NCBI RefSeq assembly: GCF_000282475.1
Contig: NZ_AKJF01000007.1
Location: 1 to 37,586, forward strand
Origin: Pseudomonas sp. GM78
GTDB lineage: Bacteria; Pseudomonadota; Gammaproteobacteria; Pseudomonadales; Pseudomonadaceae
Direction: 5' to 3'
Length of the DNA: 37,586 nucleotides
Notes under the pieces: generated by a model
What the model saw: the letters and a program-made list of their open reading frames with translations, nothing else
Databases searched by the model: none
What the model was told of the DNA's origin: nothing
Program-made: the position numbers and the translations under genes
Shown: positions 25,476-33,929 of the stretch, in pieces
How the letters are laid out: each line of letters opens with the position of its first letter
How positions within the stretch are numbered: position 1 is the first letter of the stretch

Positions 25476-25504
25476 TTGACAAGATTTAGGCGTAAACGTA
25501 TGTT
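25476..25504 (+). promoter_or_regulatory. Sigma-70 promoter of the first acyl-CoA dehydrogenase
   Basis: TTGACA (25476-25481) and TATGTT (25499-25504) are separated by the optimal 17 bases. Transcription would begin near 25511, within the adjoining PsrA operator, giving a leader of about 63 nt. Confidence 0.8.
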
Positions 25505-25520
25505 TCAAACAACTGTTTGA
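25505..25520. promoter_or_regulatory. PsrA operator
   Basis: The palindrome TCAAACAACTGTTTGA contains CAAAC-N4-GTTTG, an exact fit to the published PsrA consensus (G/C)AAAC-N2-4-GTTT(G/C). It directly abuts the -10 hexamer, so binding would block initiation until long-chain acyl groups release PsrA. Confidence 0.8.
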
Positions 25521-27553: not shown

Positions 27554-28846
27554 TTGCCGCGTTCTTCCCCTATGCGTGTGAGTCATTTTTTGCCGTCCTT
27601 ACTGCTGTTACTGGCGGGGCTCGCGGCTGCCTACATCAAGGACTTGAACGTTTTCTTCACGTCGCTGTTCAACGTGCTGCCAACCCTGGTGCTGTTACTT
27701 GGCGGTGCCTACTGTGCGGTTTACCGACGTCAGCGTGAGCTGTTTCTGATGGTCACGGTGTACATCGCCTACTTCCTGCTCGACACCCAGACCGATTACT
27801 ACCGTGACAACGGCAAGGTGCGTGACGACGCCGCGGTGGTGTTCCATTTGTGTTGCCTGCTGTTGCCGTTGCTGTTCGGCGTATTCGCCGCCTGGCAGGA
27901 GCGTACGCATCTGTTCCAGGACATGGTCGCCCGTTTCGCCGTGTTGCTGGCGGTCGGCAGCGTTGCATTGGCGCTTGAACAAAGTTACCCACAGCCGTTG
28001 CTGACGTGGCTGTCACAGATTCGCTGGCCAGCCTTGCACGGCGCCTGGATGAGCCTGATCCAGCTGTCCTATCCGGTGTTCATCGCAGCGTTCGGGCTGC
28101 TGGCCTACCAGTATTGGCGCCACCCCAGACCCCTGCATGCGGCGCAGCTGGTGGGATTGCTCGGGCTGTTCTGGATGTTGCCGAAAACCTTCATCCTGCC
28201 TTTCACCCTGAACATCATGTGCAGCCAGGTGATGCTGATGATCGCCGCCGCCGTTGCCCATGAGGCCTATCAAATGGCCTTCCGTGACGAACTGACCGGG
28301 CTGCCGGGGCGCCGAGCGTTGAATGAGCGCATGCAGCGCCTGGGGCGCAATTATGTGTTGGCCATGAGTGACGTCGACCACTTCAAGAAATTCAACGACA
28401 CCCACGGCCATGACGTGGGTGACCAGGTGTTGCGACTGGTCGCCAGCAAGCTGTCGAAAATCGGCGGCGGCGGTAAGGCCTATCGCTATGGCGGTGAGGA
28501 ATTCGCCCTGGTGTTTGCCGGCAAGAGCCTCGAAGAGTGCATGCCGCACCTGGAAGACATTCGCGAATCCATCGCCACCTACAACATTCGTCTGCGCAAC
28601 CAGGACAGCCGTCCACAGGATGACAATCAGGGCCGCCAGCGCCGCGCCGGCGCCAGTGCCTCGAGTGTGTCGGTGACTGTCAGCATCGGCGTTGCCGAAC
28701 GCGTGGAGCAGCGCACGCCCGAGCGAGTGCTCAAGTCCGCTGACGAAGCGCTTTACAGTGCCAAGGGCGCCGGGCGCAATTGCGTGATGGCGTTCGGGCA
28801 GAACCGCCGTGGTGCCGTGCGCATGGGCGCCGCTGCGGTTGAGTGA
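27554..28846 (+). CDS. Membrane diguanylate cyclase (GGDEF)
   Basis: A 430-residue protein with six or seven transmembrane segments in residues 1 to about 230 and a C-terminal GGDEF domain making cyclic di-GMP. The A-site is RYGGEEF (residues 311-317), preceded by DELTGLPGRRALNERM and MSDVDHFKKFNDTHGHDVGD, so activity is expected. The allosteric I-site (RxxD) is replaced by glycines (KIGGGGKAY). A polar insert (about residues 345-370, RNQDSRPQDDNQGRQRR) interrupts the domain before VSVTVSIGVAE. The sensory region fits no named family I know. A TTG start at 27554 is preferred because GGAG lies eight bases upstream; ATG at 27572 lacks a ribosome site. It sits between two acyl-CoA dehydrogenase genes. 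Confidence 0.88.
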   Translation: MPRSSPMRVSHFLPSLLLLLAGLAAAYIKDLNVFFTSLFNVLPTLVLLLGGAYCAVYRRQRELFLMVTVYIAYFLLDTQTDYYRDNGKVRDDAAVVFHLCCLLLPLLFGVFAAWQERTHLFQDMVARFAVLLAVGSVALALEQSYPQPLLTWLSQIRWPALHGAWMSLIQLSYPVFIAAFGLLAYQYWRHPRPLHAAQLVGLLGLFWMLPKTFILPFTLNIMCSQVMLMIAAAVAHEAYQMAFRDELTGLPGRRALNERMQRLGRNYVLAMSDVDHFKKFNDTHGHDVGDQVLRLVASKLSKIGGGGKAYRYGGEEFALVFAGKSLEECMPHLEDIRESIATYNIRLRNQDSRPQDDNQGRQRRAGASASSVSVTVSIGVAERVEQRTPERVLKSADEALYSAKGAGRNCVMAFGQNRRGAVRMGAAAVE

Positions 28847-30839: not shown

Positions 30840-30993
30840 ATTCTTACGTTTCTCCTCTGTATCTGCTGATGACTAAAAATTACAAAACAGTCATGTGCTG
30901 ACCCTATGTGTCGCAAAAGTTGTTGGGTTACACTCGGACCCAAAGAAAACATCTTTCCTACGAACCACCTGTTTAGATCTTGCGAGGTTTGCC

Positions 30994-32772
30994 ATGGCTG
31001 ACTACAAAGCGCCCCTGCGCGATATGCGCTTCGTCCTCAATGAAGTATTCGAGGTCGCCAAACTCTGGGCCGAGCTGCCAGCACTGGCCGATTCCATTGA
31101 TGCTGAAACAGTCGAAGCCATTCTCGAAGAAGCCGGCAAGGTCACCAGTAAAAGCGTCGCGCCGCTGAGCCGTGCGGCTGACGAGGAAGGTTGCCACTGG
31201 GCGGACGGTGCCGTCACCACGCCGGCAGGTTTCCCACAGGCTTACCAGACCTACGCTGAAGGCGGTTGGGTCGGTGTTGGTGGCGATCCGGCCTACGGTG
31301 GCATGGGTATGCCCAAGGCCGTTTCGGCCCAGGTCGAAGAAATGGTCAACTCGGCCAGTCTGGCGTTCGGCCTGTACCCGATGCTGACCGCCGGTGCTTG
31401 CCTGTCGATCAATGCCCACGCCAGTGAAGAACTGAAGGCCGCCTACCTGCCGAACATGTACGCCGGGGTCTGGGCCGGTTCCATGTGCCTGACCGAACCG
31501 CATGCCGGTACCGACCTGGGGATTATCCGCACCAAGGCCGAGCCTCAGCCTGACGGTTCCTACAAGGTCAGCGGCACCAAGATCTTCATCACCGGCGGCG
31601 AACACGACCTGACCGAAAACATCATCCACCTGGTGCTGGCCAAGTTGCCGGATGCACCGGCTGGACCTAAAGGGATTTCGCTGTTCCTGGTGCCCAAGTT
31701 CATGGTCAATGCCGATGGCAGCCTGGGCGCGCGCAACCCGGCAAACTGCGGCTCGATCGAGCACAAGATGGGCATCCAGGCCTCTGCGACCTGCGTGATG
31801 AACTTCGACGAAGCCGTGGGTTACCTGGTCGGCGAGCCGAACAAAGGCCTGGCGGCGATGTTCACCATGATGAACTACGAGCGTCTGGGTGTGGGTATCC
31901 AGGGCCTGGCCACCGGCGAGCGCTCTTATCAGAATGCCGTCGAGTACGCCCGCGATCGTCTGCAGAGCCGTTCGCCGACCGGCGCGCAGAACAAAGACAA
32001 AGTCGCTGACCCGATCATCGTCCACCCGGACGTGCGTCGCATGTTGCTGACCATGAAAGCCTCGAACGAAGGCGGCCGTGCATTCTCCACCTACGTGGCC
32101 ATGCAACTGGACACCGCCAAGTTCAGCGAAGACGCCACCACGCGCAAGCGCGCAGAAGACCTGGTGGCCTTGCTGACCCCGGTGGCCAAGGCGTTCCTCA
32201 CCGATCTGGGCCTGGAAACCACGGTTCACGGCCAGCAGGTGTTCGGCGGCCACGGCTACATCCGTGAGTGGGGCCAGGAGCAACTGGTGCGCGACGTGCG
32301 TATCACCCAGATCTACGAAGGCACCAATGGCATTCAGGCGTTGGACCTGGTGGGGCGCAAGATCGTCGGCAGCGGCGGGGCGTTCTACAATCTGTTTGCC
32401 GACGAGATTCGCCACTTCACCGCAACGGCCAGCGCTGACCTGGCAGAGTTCACCAAGCCGCTCAACGATGCGGTGACGACCCTGGATGAGCTGACGGCAT
32501 GGCTGCTGGACCGGGCGAAAAACAACCCGAATGAAATCGGTGCGGCGTCGGTCGAGTACCTGCAGGTATTTGGCTACGTGGCCTATGCCTACATGTGGGC
32601 ATTGATGGCCAAGGCCGCCTTGGGCAAAGAAACCCAGGACGATTTCTACGCCAGCAAACTGGGCACCGCACGCTTCTATTTCGCCCGCTTGCTGCCGCGT
32701 ATTCACTCGTTGAGCGCGTCGGTGAAGGCCGGTAGCGAATCGCTGTTCCTGCTGGATGCCGGGCAATTCTGA
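30994..32772 (+). CDS. fadE2: Acyl-CoA dehydrogenase, FadE/DmdC type (third paralogue)
   Basis: A 592-residue paralogue beginning [13 protein letters not shown]. Domain order matches the other two: [58 protein letters not shown], with catalytic Glu442 in IYEGTNGIQALD and the extra C-terminal domain. It departs from the pair in several places, such as HAGTD for HCGTD, which suggests an older split and a different chain-length range. PAO1's third gene in this run is called FadE2, as I recall. The ATG at 30994 starts the conserved motif, and the longer frame from 30895 is rejected. Its stop lies 13 bp from the GacA box of rsmY, with no terminator between. Confidence 0.9.
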   Translation: MADYKAPLRDMRFVLNEVFEVAKLWAELPALADSIDAETVEAILEEAGKVTSKSVAPLSRAADEEGCHWADGAVTTPAGFPQAYQTYAEGGWVGVGGDPAYGGMGMPKAVSAQVEEMVNSASLAFGLYPMLTAGACLSINAHASEELKAAYLPNMYAGVWAGSMCLTEPHAGTDLGIIRTKAEPQPDGSYKVSGTKIFITGGEHDLTENIIHLVLAKLPDAPAGPKGISLFLVPKFMVNADGSLGARNPANCGSIEHKMGIQASATCVMNFDEAVGYLVGEPNKGLAAMFTMMNYERLGVGIQGLATGERSYQNAVEYARDRLQSRSPTGAQNKDKVADPIIVHPDVRRMLLTMKASNEGGRAFSTYVAMQLDTAKFSEDATTRKRAEDLVALLTPVAKAFLTDLGLETTVHGQQVFGGHGYIREWGQEQLVRDVRITQIYEGTNGIQALDLVGRKIVGSGGAFYNLFADEIRHFTATASADLAEFTKPLNDAVTTLDELTAWLLDRAKNNPNEIGAASVEYLQVFGYVAYAYMWALMAKAALGKETQDDFYASKLGTARFYFARLLPRIHSLSASVKAGSESLFLLDAGQF

Positions 32773-32785
32773 TGTTGTAACCTGA

Positions 32786-32803
32786 TGTAAGCATTCTCTT
32801 ACA
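32786..32803 (+). promoter_or_regulatory. GacA upstream activating sequence of rsmY
   Basis: TGTAAG-CATTCT-CTTACA is a perfect match to the GacA box TGTAAG-N6-CTTACA. Its centre is about 66 bp upstream of the predicted RNA start, as in known rsmX/Y/Z promoters. Confidence 0.95.
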
Positions 32804-32847
32804 TGACGTGCTGCTGTTCTCCCATAGTCGTAAATTGGATCCACGGC

Positions 32848-32853
32848 TAATCT
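32848..32853 (+). promoter_or_regulatory. -10 hexamer of rsmY
   Basis: TAATCT lies seven bases before the predicted RNA start at about 32861. No good -35 is present, as expected for a promoter that depends on phosphorylated GacA. Confidence 0.65.
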
Positions 32854-32860
32854 ACCTCTC

Positions 32861-32978
32861 ATGGACGTAGTGCAGGAAGCGCAAAGTAACAACACGGACA
32901 CGTAGGATTCTGCCAGGACGGCGGAGTGAAATGGATGTCAGGGAAACAGTCTGCAAAGCCCCGCTTCGGCGGGGTTTT
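32861..32978 (+). ncRNA. rsmY: Small RNA RsmY
   Basis: A predicted RNA of about 118 nt, the length known for P. fluorescens RsmY. It carries eight GGA motifs (at 32863, 32875, 32896, 32905, 32916, 32923, 32933 and 32942), the binding signature for RsmA/RsmE proteins, and ends in the hairpin GCCCCGC-TTCG-GCGGGG plus T run. By sequestering RsmA/E it lifts repression of exoproducts, secondary metabolites and biofilm genes. Its position beside the LysR gene and class III aminotransferase matches the rsmY locus of PAO1 as I recall it. The exact ends are predicted from the -10 and terminator. Confidence 0.93.
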
Positions 32979-32984
32979 CTTTTG
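32955..32984 (+). terminator. Rho-independent terminator of rsmY
   Basis: The stem GCCCCGC / GCGGGG closed by a TTCG tetraloop is followed by TTTTCTTTTG. It lies 16 bp from the end of the convergent LysR gene. Confidence 0.93.
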
Positions 32985-32999
32985 TCTCGAGAAAAGTGT

Positions 33000-33929
33000 T
33001 CAGCTCAGGCCATCCAGTGCCGGCGGGCTGTTCAAGCGCTCATCCGGTCGATTGATCACCTCCTCCAGCAACGTGCGCAGCAAGGCCAGCGATGCCTGTT
33101 GCCGTTGCACATCGCGACAGACCAACCCGACTTTGAGCGGCACCCGCGGCTCGCTCAGGGGTTTCCACAACAGTTCCTGGTTGCCGTGGGTCTTCTGCGA
33201 GCGTCCAGGCAGCACCGTCGCCAGTCGCGTGTGCGGCAGGCTGTCGAGTATACCGGCCATGTTGTTCAGCTCGGCCTGCACCTGCGGACGTCGTCCCAGG
33301 CTGGCCAGTTGTGCCTGCCAGATCTGCCGTATCTGAAACTCTTCACCCAGCAGCAGCATCGGCAGTTCGGCGGCCTGGCTCATGGAGACTTTCTTGAATT
33401 CGCGCAAGGGATGGTCCGCCGGGATGACCAGTGTCAGTTCGTCCTCGTACAACAGCACCCCATGCAGGCCCGGCTGACGTGGTGGCAAGTAACCGATGCC
33501 GATGTCCAGCGAACCATTGAGCAGGCGCCGCTCGATTTCCAGCCCCGTCAGTTCATAGATCTGCACCACCAGATGGGGCTGCGCCTTGCGCACCCGTTCG
33601 AGCATTTGTGGTACCAGGCTGGTGTGCACGGTTTGCAGTACGCCAATGGCCAGGGTGCGCAGCGCGTGCCCCTTGAAGTTGCCCAGAGCTTCGCGTGCCC
33701 GTTGCAGACCATCGAGCAAGGGCAGGGCATGGTTGTACAGCGTATGGGCCGCAAGGGTCGGCAACAGGCGTTTGCTGCTGCGTTCGAACAGGCTCACATC
33801 GAGGGTTTGTTCGAGCTGGCGGATCTGCTGGGACAGCGCCGGCTGGGAAATGGACAGCCGCTCGGCCGCCCGGCCCACATGGCCTTCTTCGTAGACCGCG
33901 ACGAAATAACGCAGTTGCTTGAAATCCAT
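33000..33929 (-). CDS. LysR-family transcriptional regulator
   Basis: A 309-residue LysR regulator. The N-terminal winged helix (MDFKQLRYFVAVYEEGHVGR, then AAERLSISQPALSQQIRQLE) spans residues 1-60. A LysR substrate-binding domain covers about 90-300, resembling the BenM/CatR aromatic-pathway or CynR subgroup only loosely. It is divergent from the aminotransferase, sharing 169 bp of upstream DNA with an inverted repeat, so it probably controls that gene. Its ligand is not evident. On the other side it converges on rsmY. Confidence 0.9.
   Translation of the reverse strand: MDFKQLRYFVAVYEEGHVGRAAERLSISQPALSQQIRQLEQTLDVSLFERSSKRLLPTLAAHTLYNHALPLLDGLQRAREALGNFKGHALRTLAIGVLQTVHTSLVPQMLERVRKAQPHLVVQIYELTGLEIERRLLNGSLDIGIGYLPPRQPGLHGVLLYEDELTLVIPADHPLREFKKVSMSQAAELPMLLLGEEFQIRQIWQAQLASLGRRPQVQAELNNMAGILDSLPHTRLATVLPGRSQKTHGNQELLWKPLSEPRVPLKVGLVCRDVQRQQASLALLRTLLEEVINRPDERLNSPPALDGLS

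Follow-up and report, generated by a model that had tools for sequence, protein, structure and literature searches.

An rsmY locus with an exact GacA box between an acyl-CoA dehydrogenase gene and a LysR-type regulator gene in Pseudomonas sp. GM78

Does the short interval that follows an acyl-CoA dehydrogenase gene in Pseudomonas sp. GM78 hold a complete Gac/Rsm riboregulator, and does transcription of the fatty-acid gene contribute to it? A sequence-only reading of the window, by which we mean the whole 37,586-nucleotide stretch of DNA analysed here, had proposed a complete rsmY locus and had raised the possibility of transcripts reading through from the dehydrogenase into it. We conclude that positions 32861-32978 are almost certainly rsmY, the gene for a GacA-activated sponge RNA for RsmA/RsmE-type proteins. 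It is an already known gene, correctly recognized by that reading. The features of the locus are collected in Table 1.

Table 1. Features at and around rsmY, in positions of the window
Feature	Position	Strand	Remarks
Third acyl-CoA dehydrogenase ORF	30895..32772	+	Pfam Acyl-CoA_dh_N, _M, _1, _C; upstream of rsmY
Left flank arm ACCTGA	32780..32785	+	pairs 4/6 in the window
GacA box (upstream activating sequence)	32786-32803	+	TGTAAG-CATTCT-CTTACA; zero mismatches
Right flank arm TGACGT	32804..32809	+	wider inverted repeat
-10 element TAATCT	32848-32853	+	read from the sequence
RsmY small RNA	32861..32978	+	118 nt by the Rfam model; RF00195
Intrinsic rsmY terminator	32955-32978	+	GC-rich stem-loop, then T-rich tail
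LysR-type regulator	33000..33929	-	Pfam; convergent with rsmY

A search against Rfam placed the RNA in family RF00195 with a score of 122.9 bits, far above the cut-off of 57 (E 1.9e-29), along the full length of the model (1-121 of 121), and so bore out the identity proposed earlier. No other Rfam match in the 37.6 kb window exceeded its cut-off. The start of the RNA and its length of 118 nt are those of the model alignment rather than mapped ends. The gene was to be expected, because an RsmY match was found in each of the 199 genus genomes searched, 196 of them over the cut-off. Elsewhere in the GM78 genome, an RsmY-like match on contig 18 (29.7 bits, below the cut-off of 57) has a broken first stem and was taken as chance. 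Upstream of rsmY, the dehydrogenase gene, which to judge from its protein letters probably starts at ATG 30994, ends in a stop codon at 32770-32772, and the GacA box follows after the 13 bp that had been claimed. Downstream, 21 bp separate the stem of the rsmY terminator from the stop codon of the convergent LysR gene (window 32861-33002). Few T follow the rsmY hairpin when it is read on the minus strand, which makes antisense RNA running into rsmY conceivable.

The GacA box matches the pattern TGTAAGN6CTTACA without a mismatch, as had been read, and begins 75 bp before the RNA. This was the one exact site found in the genome (7.29 Mb, 235 contigs), where about 0.13 would be expected from base composition, or 0.0007 per window. 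When up to two mismatches were allowed, the genome held 63 sites per strand versus 89 for a reversed control pattern; therefore, only position and exactness carry weight. A chance occurrence of the box at rsmY was rejected, since the genome search returned no other exact site and relatives keep the box at the same place. The element TAATCT lies 44 bp past the box, where a -10 had been placed at about 45 bp, and 7 bp ahead of the first base of the RNA as set by the Rfam model. It is present in 18 of the 19 rsmY upstream sequences listed and corresponds to the -10 that has been published for P. chlororaphis and P. protegens rsm genes (PMC3684763). A sigma-70 consensus promoter was searched for in 32500-33300 and not found, which fits a promoter with a lone -10 that depends on an activator. 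The upstream sequence is stated to be required for rsmY in P. fluorescens 2P24 (PMC3510223).

The RNA carries eight GGA motifs within its 118 nt. Counts of at least eight were reached in 2 of 2000 dinucleotide shuffles (mean 3.2) and in 24 of 2000 simple shuffles (mean 3.8), and the number given by the earlier reading is thus both correct and enriched. In the predicted ensemble all three letters are mostly unpaired at 32875, 32916 and 32942, and two of the three at 32905 and 32933. The motifs at 32923, 32863 and 32896 are mostly paired in the predicted fold, which we count against the RsmY reading. Several GGA motifs are reported to be needed (PMC2375449). The terminator that had been described was found as a stem-loop at the 3' end of the RNA; it is the only terminator-like site in 32500-33300, so none lies between the dehydrogenase stop codon and the RNA, in agreement with what had been said of the interval up to the box. 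Box, -10, GGA motifs and terminator are thus all present, and the locus is complete as proposed.

The partner families of RsmY were observed in the same genome as directly as the sequence of the locus, its family membership and its genome context. One RsmZ (RF00166, 133 bits) and one RsmX (RF02144, 102.2 bits, on contig 56) lie over their cut-offs; an RsmY match of 27.8 bits on contig 56 was discarded, as it is this RsmX, which scores 102.2 bits with its own model. Additionally, there are four CsrA/RsmA-family genes, and one response regulator exceeds the cut-off of the GacA/UvrY-family model (316 bits versus 280). For GacA binding, transcription, protein titration and the targets of RsmY we draw on the known system. 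By this analogy, phosphorylated GacA would bind the palindrome, whose centre lies about 66 bp upstream of the RNA start, and would then activate a promoter with a -10 element and no good -35. The resulting RNA of roughly 118 nt, with its eight GGA motifs, would bind RsmA/RsmE-type proteins, and their capture would free target mRNAs for translation.

The RsmY of P. fluorescens SS101 (PflSS101_4962; PMC4353343) has the same 18-bp box, the same length of 118 nt and eight GGA motifs, and it is GacA-dependent there, with rsmY lowered in both gacS and gacA mutants. Nothing of kind differs from the window, the likeness being one of described features rather than of RNA sequence. P. putida RsmY is reported to bind RsmA, RsmE and RsmI in vitro (PMC7937890), and in P. 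chlororaphis 30-84 rsmY is the most abundant of the three (PMC3684763). RsmZ (RF00166) and RsmX (RF02144) belong to the Rfam clan of RsmY and are likewise GGA-rich sponges for RsmA-type proteins, described by separate models. Unlike the rsmY box, the rsmZ box lies 187-190 bp upstream (28 of 30 rsmZ loci kept); in GM78 it reads TGTAAGTCTTCGCTTACT and begins 189 bp before the rsmZ RNA. The rsmX box is half-degenerate, TATRGC-N6-CTTACA, in 22 of the 25 loci kept of 30, and the best candidate in GM78, TATAGCGAATGTCTTACA, has three mismatches and lies 74 bp before the RNA. These 22 rsmX loci (among L158 and L200-L228) have TATRGC instead of TGTAAG as the left half and retain CTTACA as the right half; the distance to the RNA is 74 bp in most. 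An exact GacA palindrome occurs in one rsmX locus, L221. In enterobacteria, CsrA is captured by the sponges CsrB and CsrC, which UvrY, the orthologue of GacA, activates by way of an inverted repeat of 18 nt (PMC4682653); at 360 and 250 nt these RNAs are longer than RsmY.

The locus was compared across 150 aligned loci, made up of the window, the 30 best-scoring loci from the genus search and 119 listed by an exact-pattern scan of named genomes, a sample weighted towards close relatives rather than a census. The GacA box is exact in 123 of the loci listed and one letter off in 23. The remaining four have 5-6 mismatches; the sequence of three of them (L068, L086 and L106) ends within or before the box, as presumably does that of L121. 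Among the 146 loci listed with a box, it begins 74-76 bp before the RNA in 145, and the RNA has eight GGA motifs in 102, seven in 33, nine in 7, ten in 2 and six in 2. A dehydrogenase was found upstream of rsmY in 138 of the 150 loci listed and was not found there in 12, namely the four box-less loci and eight others. Among those 138, the gap from stop codon to box is 13 bp in 59 and 14 bp in 59, and ranges from 3 to 172 bp in the other 20. A lax scan returned a terminator-like site at the 3' end of rsmY in 138 of 138 loci listed, which served as its positive control. Conservation of the location of rsmY, at least to some extent, has been described across several strains (PMC4353343). One locus, L065 (JAKJHY010000102.1, 3.8 kb), listed under Mycobacterium sp. 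MBM, carries rsmY with an exact GacA box and with dehydrogenase and LysR neighbours; the contig most likely stems from Pseudomonas and was placed in that assembly by error.

With the dehydrogenase this close, a meaningful part of RsmY might be made as the 3' tail of the dehydrogenase mRNA, and fatty-acid metabolism would then feed the Rsm system. We consider this very unlikely. The arrangement itself is favourable: both genes lie on the same strand with 13 bp from stop codon to box and no terminator-like site between them, the dehydrogenase is upstream in 138 of the 150 loci listed with the box 13 or 14 bp past its stop in 118 of the 138, and the lax scan returned no terminator-like site between the two genes in 123 of these 138, the window included. 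Such a site was, however, returned in 15 of the 138, and a hairpin-forming repeat lies between dehydrogenase and rsmY RNA in many relatives. Furthermore, rsmY RNA in P. chlororaphis 30-84 is reported at 38112 RPKM in the wild type and 329 RPKM in a gacA mutant, about 100-fold lower (PMC3684763). In the P. chlororaphis locus L060 the box follows the same dehydrogenase after 14 bp, with a 34-base perfect hairpin between; together with the gacA figures, this arrangement means that at most about 1% of rsmY RNA is GacA-independent under those conditions. L060 may not stand for the window, because its hairpin between dehydrogenase and box is longer. The readthrough suggested by the sequence-only reading therefore stands as structurally possible, given the lack of a terminator-like site in between, and is unproven; it is probably minor, since P. 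chlororaphis retains 1% of its rsmY RNA once gacA is lost. As judged by title and the start of the abstract, no paper on a joined dehydrogenase-rsmY transcript was found.

The data on PsrA point the same way. In P. fluorescens 2P24 an rsmY promoter fusion was unchanged in a psrA mutant, this 330-bp fusion being blind to readthrough (PMC3510223). In P. aeruginosa, PA0508, the third of three adjacent homologues and the presumed orthologue, was halved rather than raised in a psrA mutant (PMC5722320), and the only exact PsrA-type operator of the window sits at the first dehydrogenase, not at the third. A PsrA-mediated fatty-acid control of rsmY gained no support either: when up to two mismatches to SAAACN4GTTTS were allowed, the window had 44 sites versus 47.8 by chance, the sole exact one being that at the first dehydrogenase. 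This operator, CAAACAACTGTTTG at 25506-25519, directly follows a TTGACA-17-TATGTT promoter-like site (window 25476-25519). Its position before the first acyl-CoA dehydrogenase gene suggests fatty-acid-responsive control of that gene; a paper on P. aeruginosa describes the PsrA motif and the control that it exerts over PA0506 (PMC5722320). Between the first and second dehydrogenase genes lies an ORF (27554-28846) whose C-terminal half resembles, by eye, a GGDEF diguanylate cyclase.

In many relatives the rsmY palindrome is extended by six bp on each side, and these flanks differ between species in matching ways. All six arm pairs are formed in 49 of the 146 loci listed, as ACGTCA/TGACGT in 28, ACGTTA/TAACGT in 9, ACGCAA/TTGCGT in 5, ACGACG/CGTCGT in 2, and as ACGTCG/CGACGT, ACGCCA/TGGCGT, ACGCTG/CAGCGT, ACGGCA/TGCCGT and ACGCTA/TAGCGT in one locus each; the mean folding energy of the 30-mer across these 49 loci is -16.1 kcal/mol. 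In the window the arms have decayed to four pairs of six, and the 30-mer folds at -6.0 kcal/mol. Many lineages lack the wider repeat (for example, a group of 16 loci with AGGGCG/TGACGT and three pairs of six), and thus rsmY can exist without it. In a set of 30 loci from a search beyond the genus, the box was found by pattern in 22, and complete arms only in L230, a same-genus genome, followed by L246 with five pairs of six.

Where the box lies 3-60 bp past the dehydrogenase stop codon, 9 of 74 distinct arm pairs are perfect versus a mean of 1.5 after shuffling of the right arms among the left ones, and none of 10,000 shuffles reached nine. Because related sequences can mimic a pairing excess, we also let each flank column evolve on its own in simulations along a maximum-likelihood dehydrogenase tree, which covered 132 of the 138 loci (six with fewer than 500 bases of the gene were left out). 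The in-register excess had a z of 8.0 and was reached in 0 of 1000 simulations; z was 7.1 when only spacings of 13-14 were used (113 tips), and 6.0 when the LysR gene supplied the tree (113 tips), again with 0 of 1000 simulations reaching it. A weak point is the saved-change count on the LysR tree, which was only modest, being reached by 48 of 1000 simulations. Out-of-register pairs showed no excess at offsets of -3 to +3, nor at -2 to +2 in a second run. Recombination was accordingly rejected as the source of the arm covariation, since out-of-register pairs share the same linkage yet are without excess. Covariation was found at flank positions 1 (simulated p 0.014), 2 (<0.001), 3 (0.001) and 6 (0.012), and not at positions 4 and 5, where the right side is nearly constant; beyond the six, position 7 was null (p 0.35) and position 8 gave p 0.027, a further weak point. 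An independent-pairs sign test supported position 2, with 6.3 the same way versus 0.3 the other (median p 0.03, range 0.008-0.22); its samples at positions 1 and 6 were small. The flanks of rsmZ boxes formed 1.33 of six pairs versus 1.11 when shuffled (p 0.09; 24 distinct arm pairs, 28 of 30 loci), and those of rsmX boxes 1.43 versus 1.49 (23 distinct arm pairs, 25 of 30 loci). The wider repeat is not general to GacA boxes. No description of the flank covariation was found in the accessible literature, most subscription papers, the main ones on rsm promoters included, lying outside the search.

How the flanks came to match can be read in several ways. The dehydrogenase mRNA may end in a hairpin formed by the wider repeat, for end protection or weak termination, with the same stretch serving as a DNA operator for rsmY. 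Consistent with such a hairpin, the flank pairs covary on the tree, the repeat begins about 7 nt past the stop codon where the stop-to-box spacing is 13, loci with complete arms have the low mean fold energy given above, and rsmX and rsmZ boxes show no such flank pairing. This origin is nevertheless rather unlikely, as the repeat is lost or weak in many lineages, including in the window, and a clear T-run right after it is absent: 15 of the 138 loci listed pass the lax scan, and other hairpins account for at least two of these. Moreover, most arm changes fall on the faster-evolving left side, and among 13 distinct one-mismatch arm pairs scored by eye, a small sample, seven would leave a G-U on the transcribed strand, three on the other and three on neither. 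Alternatively, the covariation may be mutational, with DNA template switching copying one arm of the palindrome onto the other and no function kept. Such an origin is quite possible, if short of probable: template switching is reported to create and mend inverted repeats (PMC8794818), and it would account for the loss in some lineages as well as for the lack of a clear G-U preference. It should, however, act on rsmZ boxes too, where the pairing is close to that of shuffled arms; the rsmZ core is itself less perfect. We weight the mutational reading slightly above the RNA hairpin. The symmetry of the flanks may also reflect GacA contacts beyond 18 bp, the repeat bound by UvrY being given as 18 nt (PMC4682653). 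That in much of the genus the box lies within a longer repeat kept complementary by paired changes, acting both as a DNA operator and as a functional RNA hairpin that insulates rsmY or couples both genes, seems to us unlikely.

The covariation of the flanks is a small side observation and the only unfamiliar point of an otherwise ordinary rsmY locus. Annotation of rsmY is useful because protein tracks leave such a gene out. Should the covarying flanks be functional, the rsmY promoter would have to be drawn as 30 bp rather than 18, with a structural tie to the preceding gene; should they be mutational, they would provide a natural example of template switching that imitates RNA covariation in a DNA operator.
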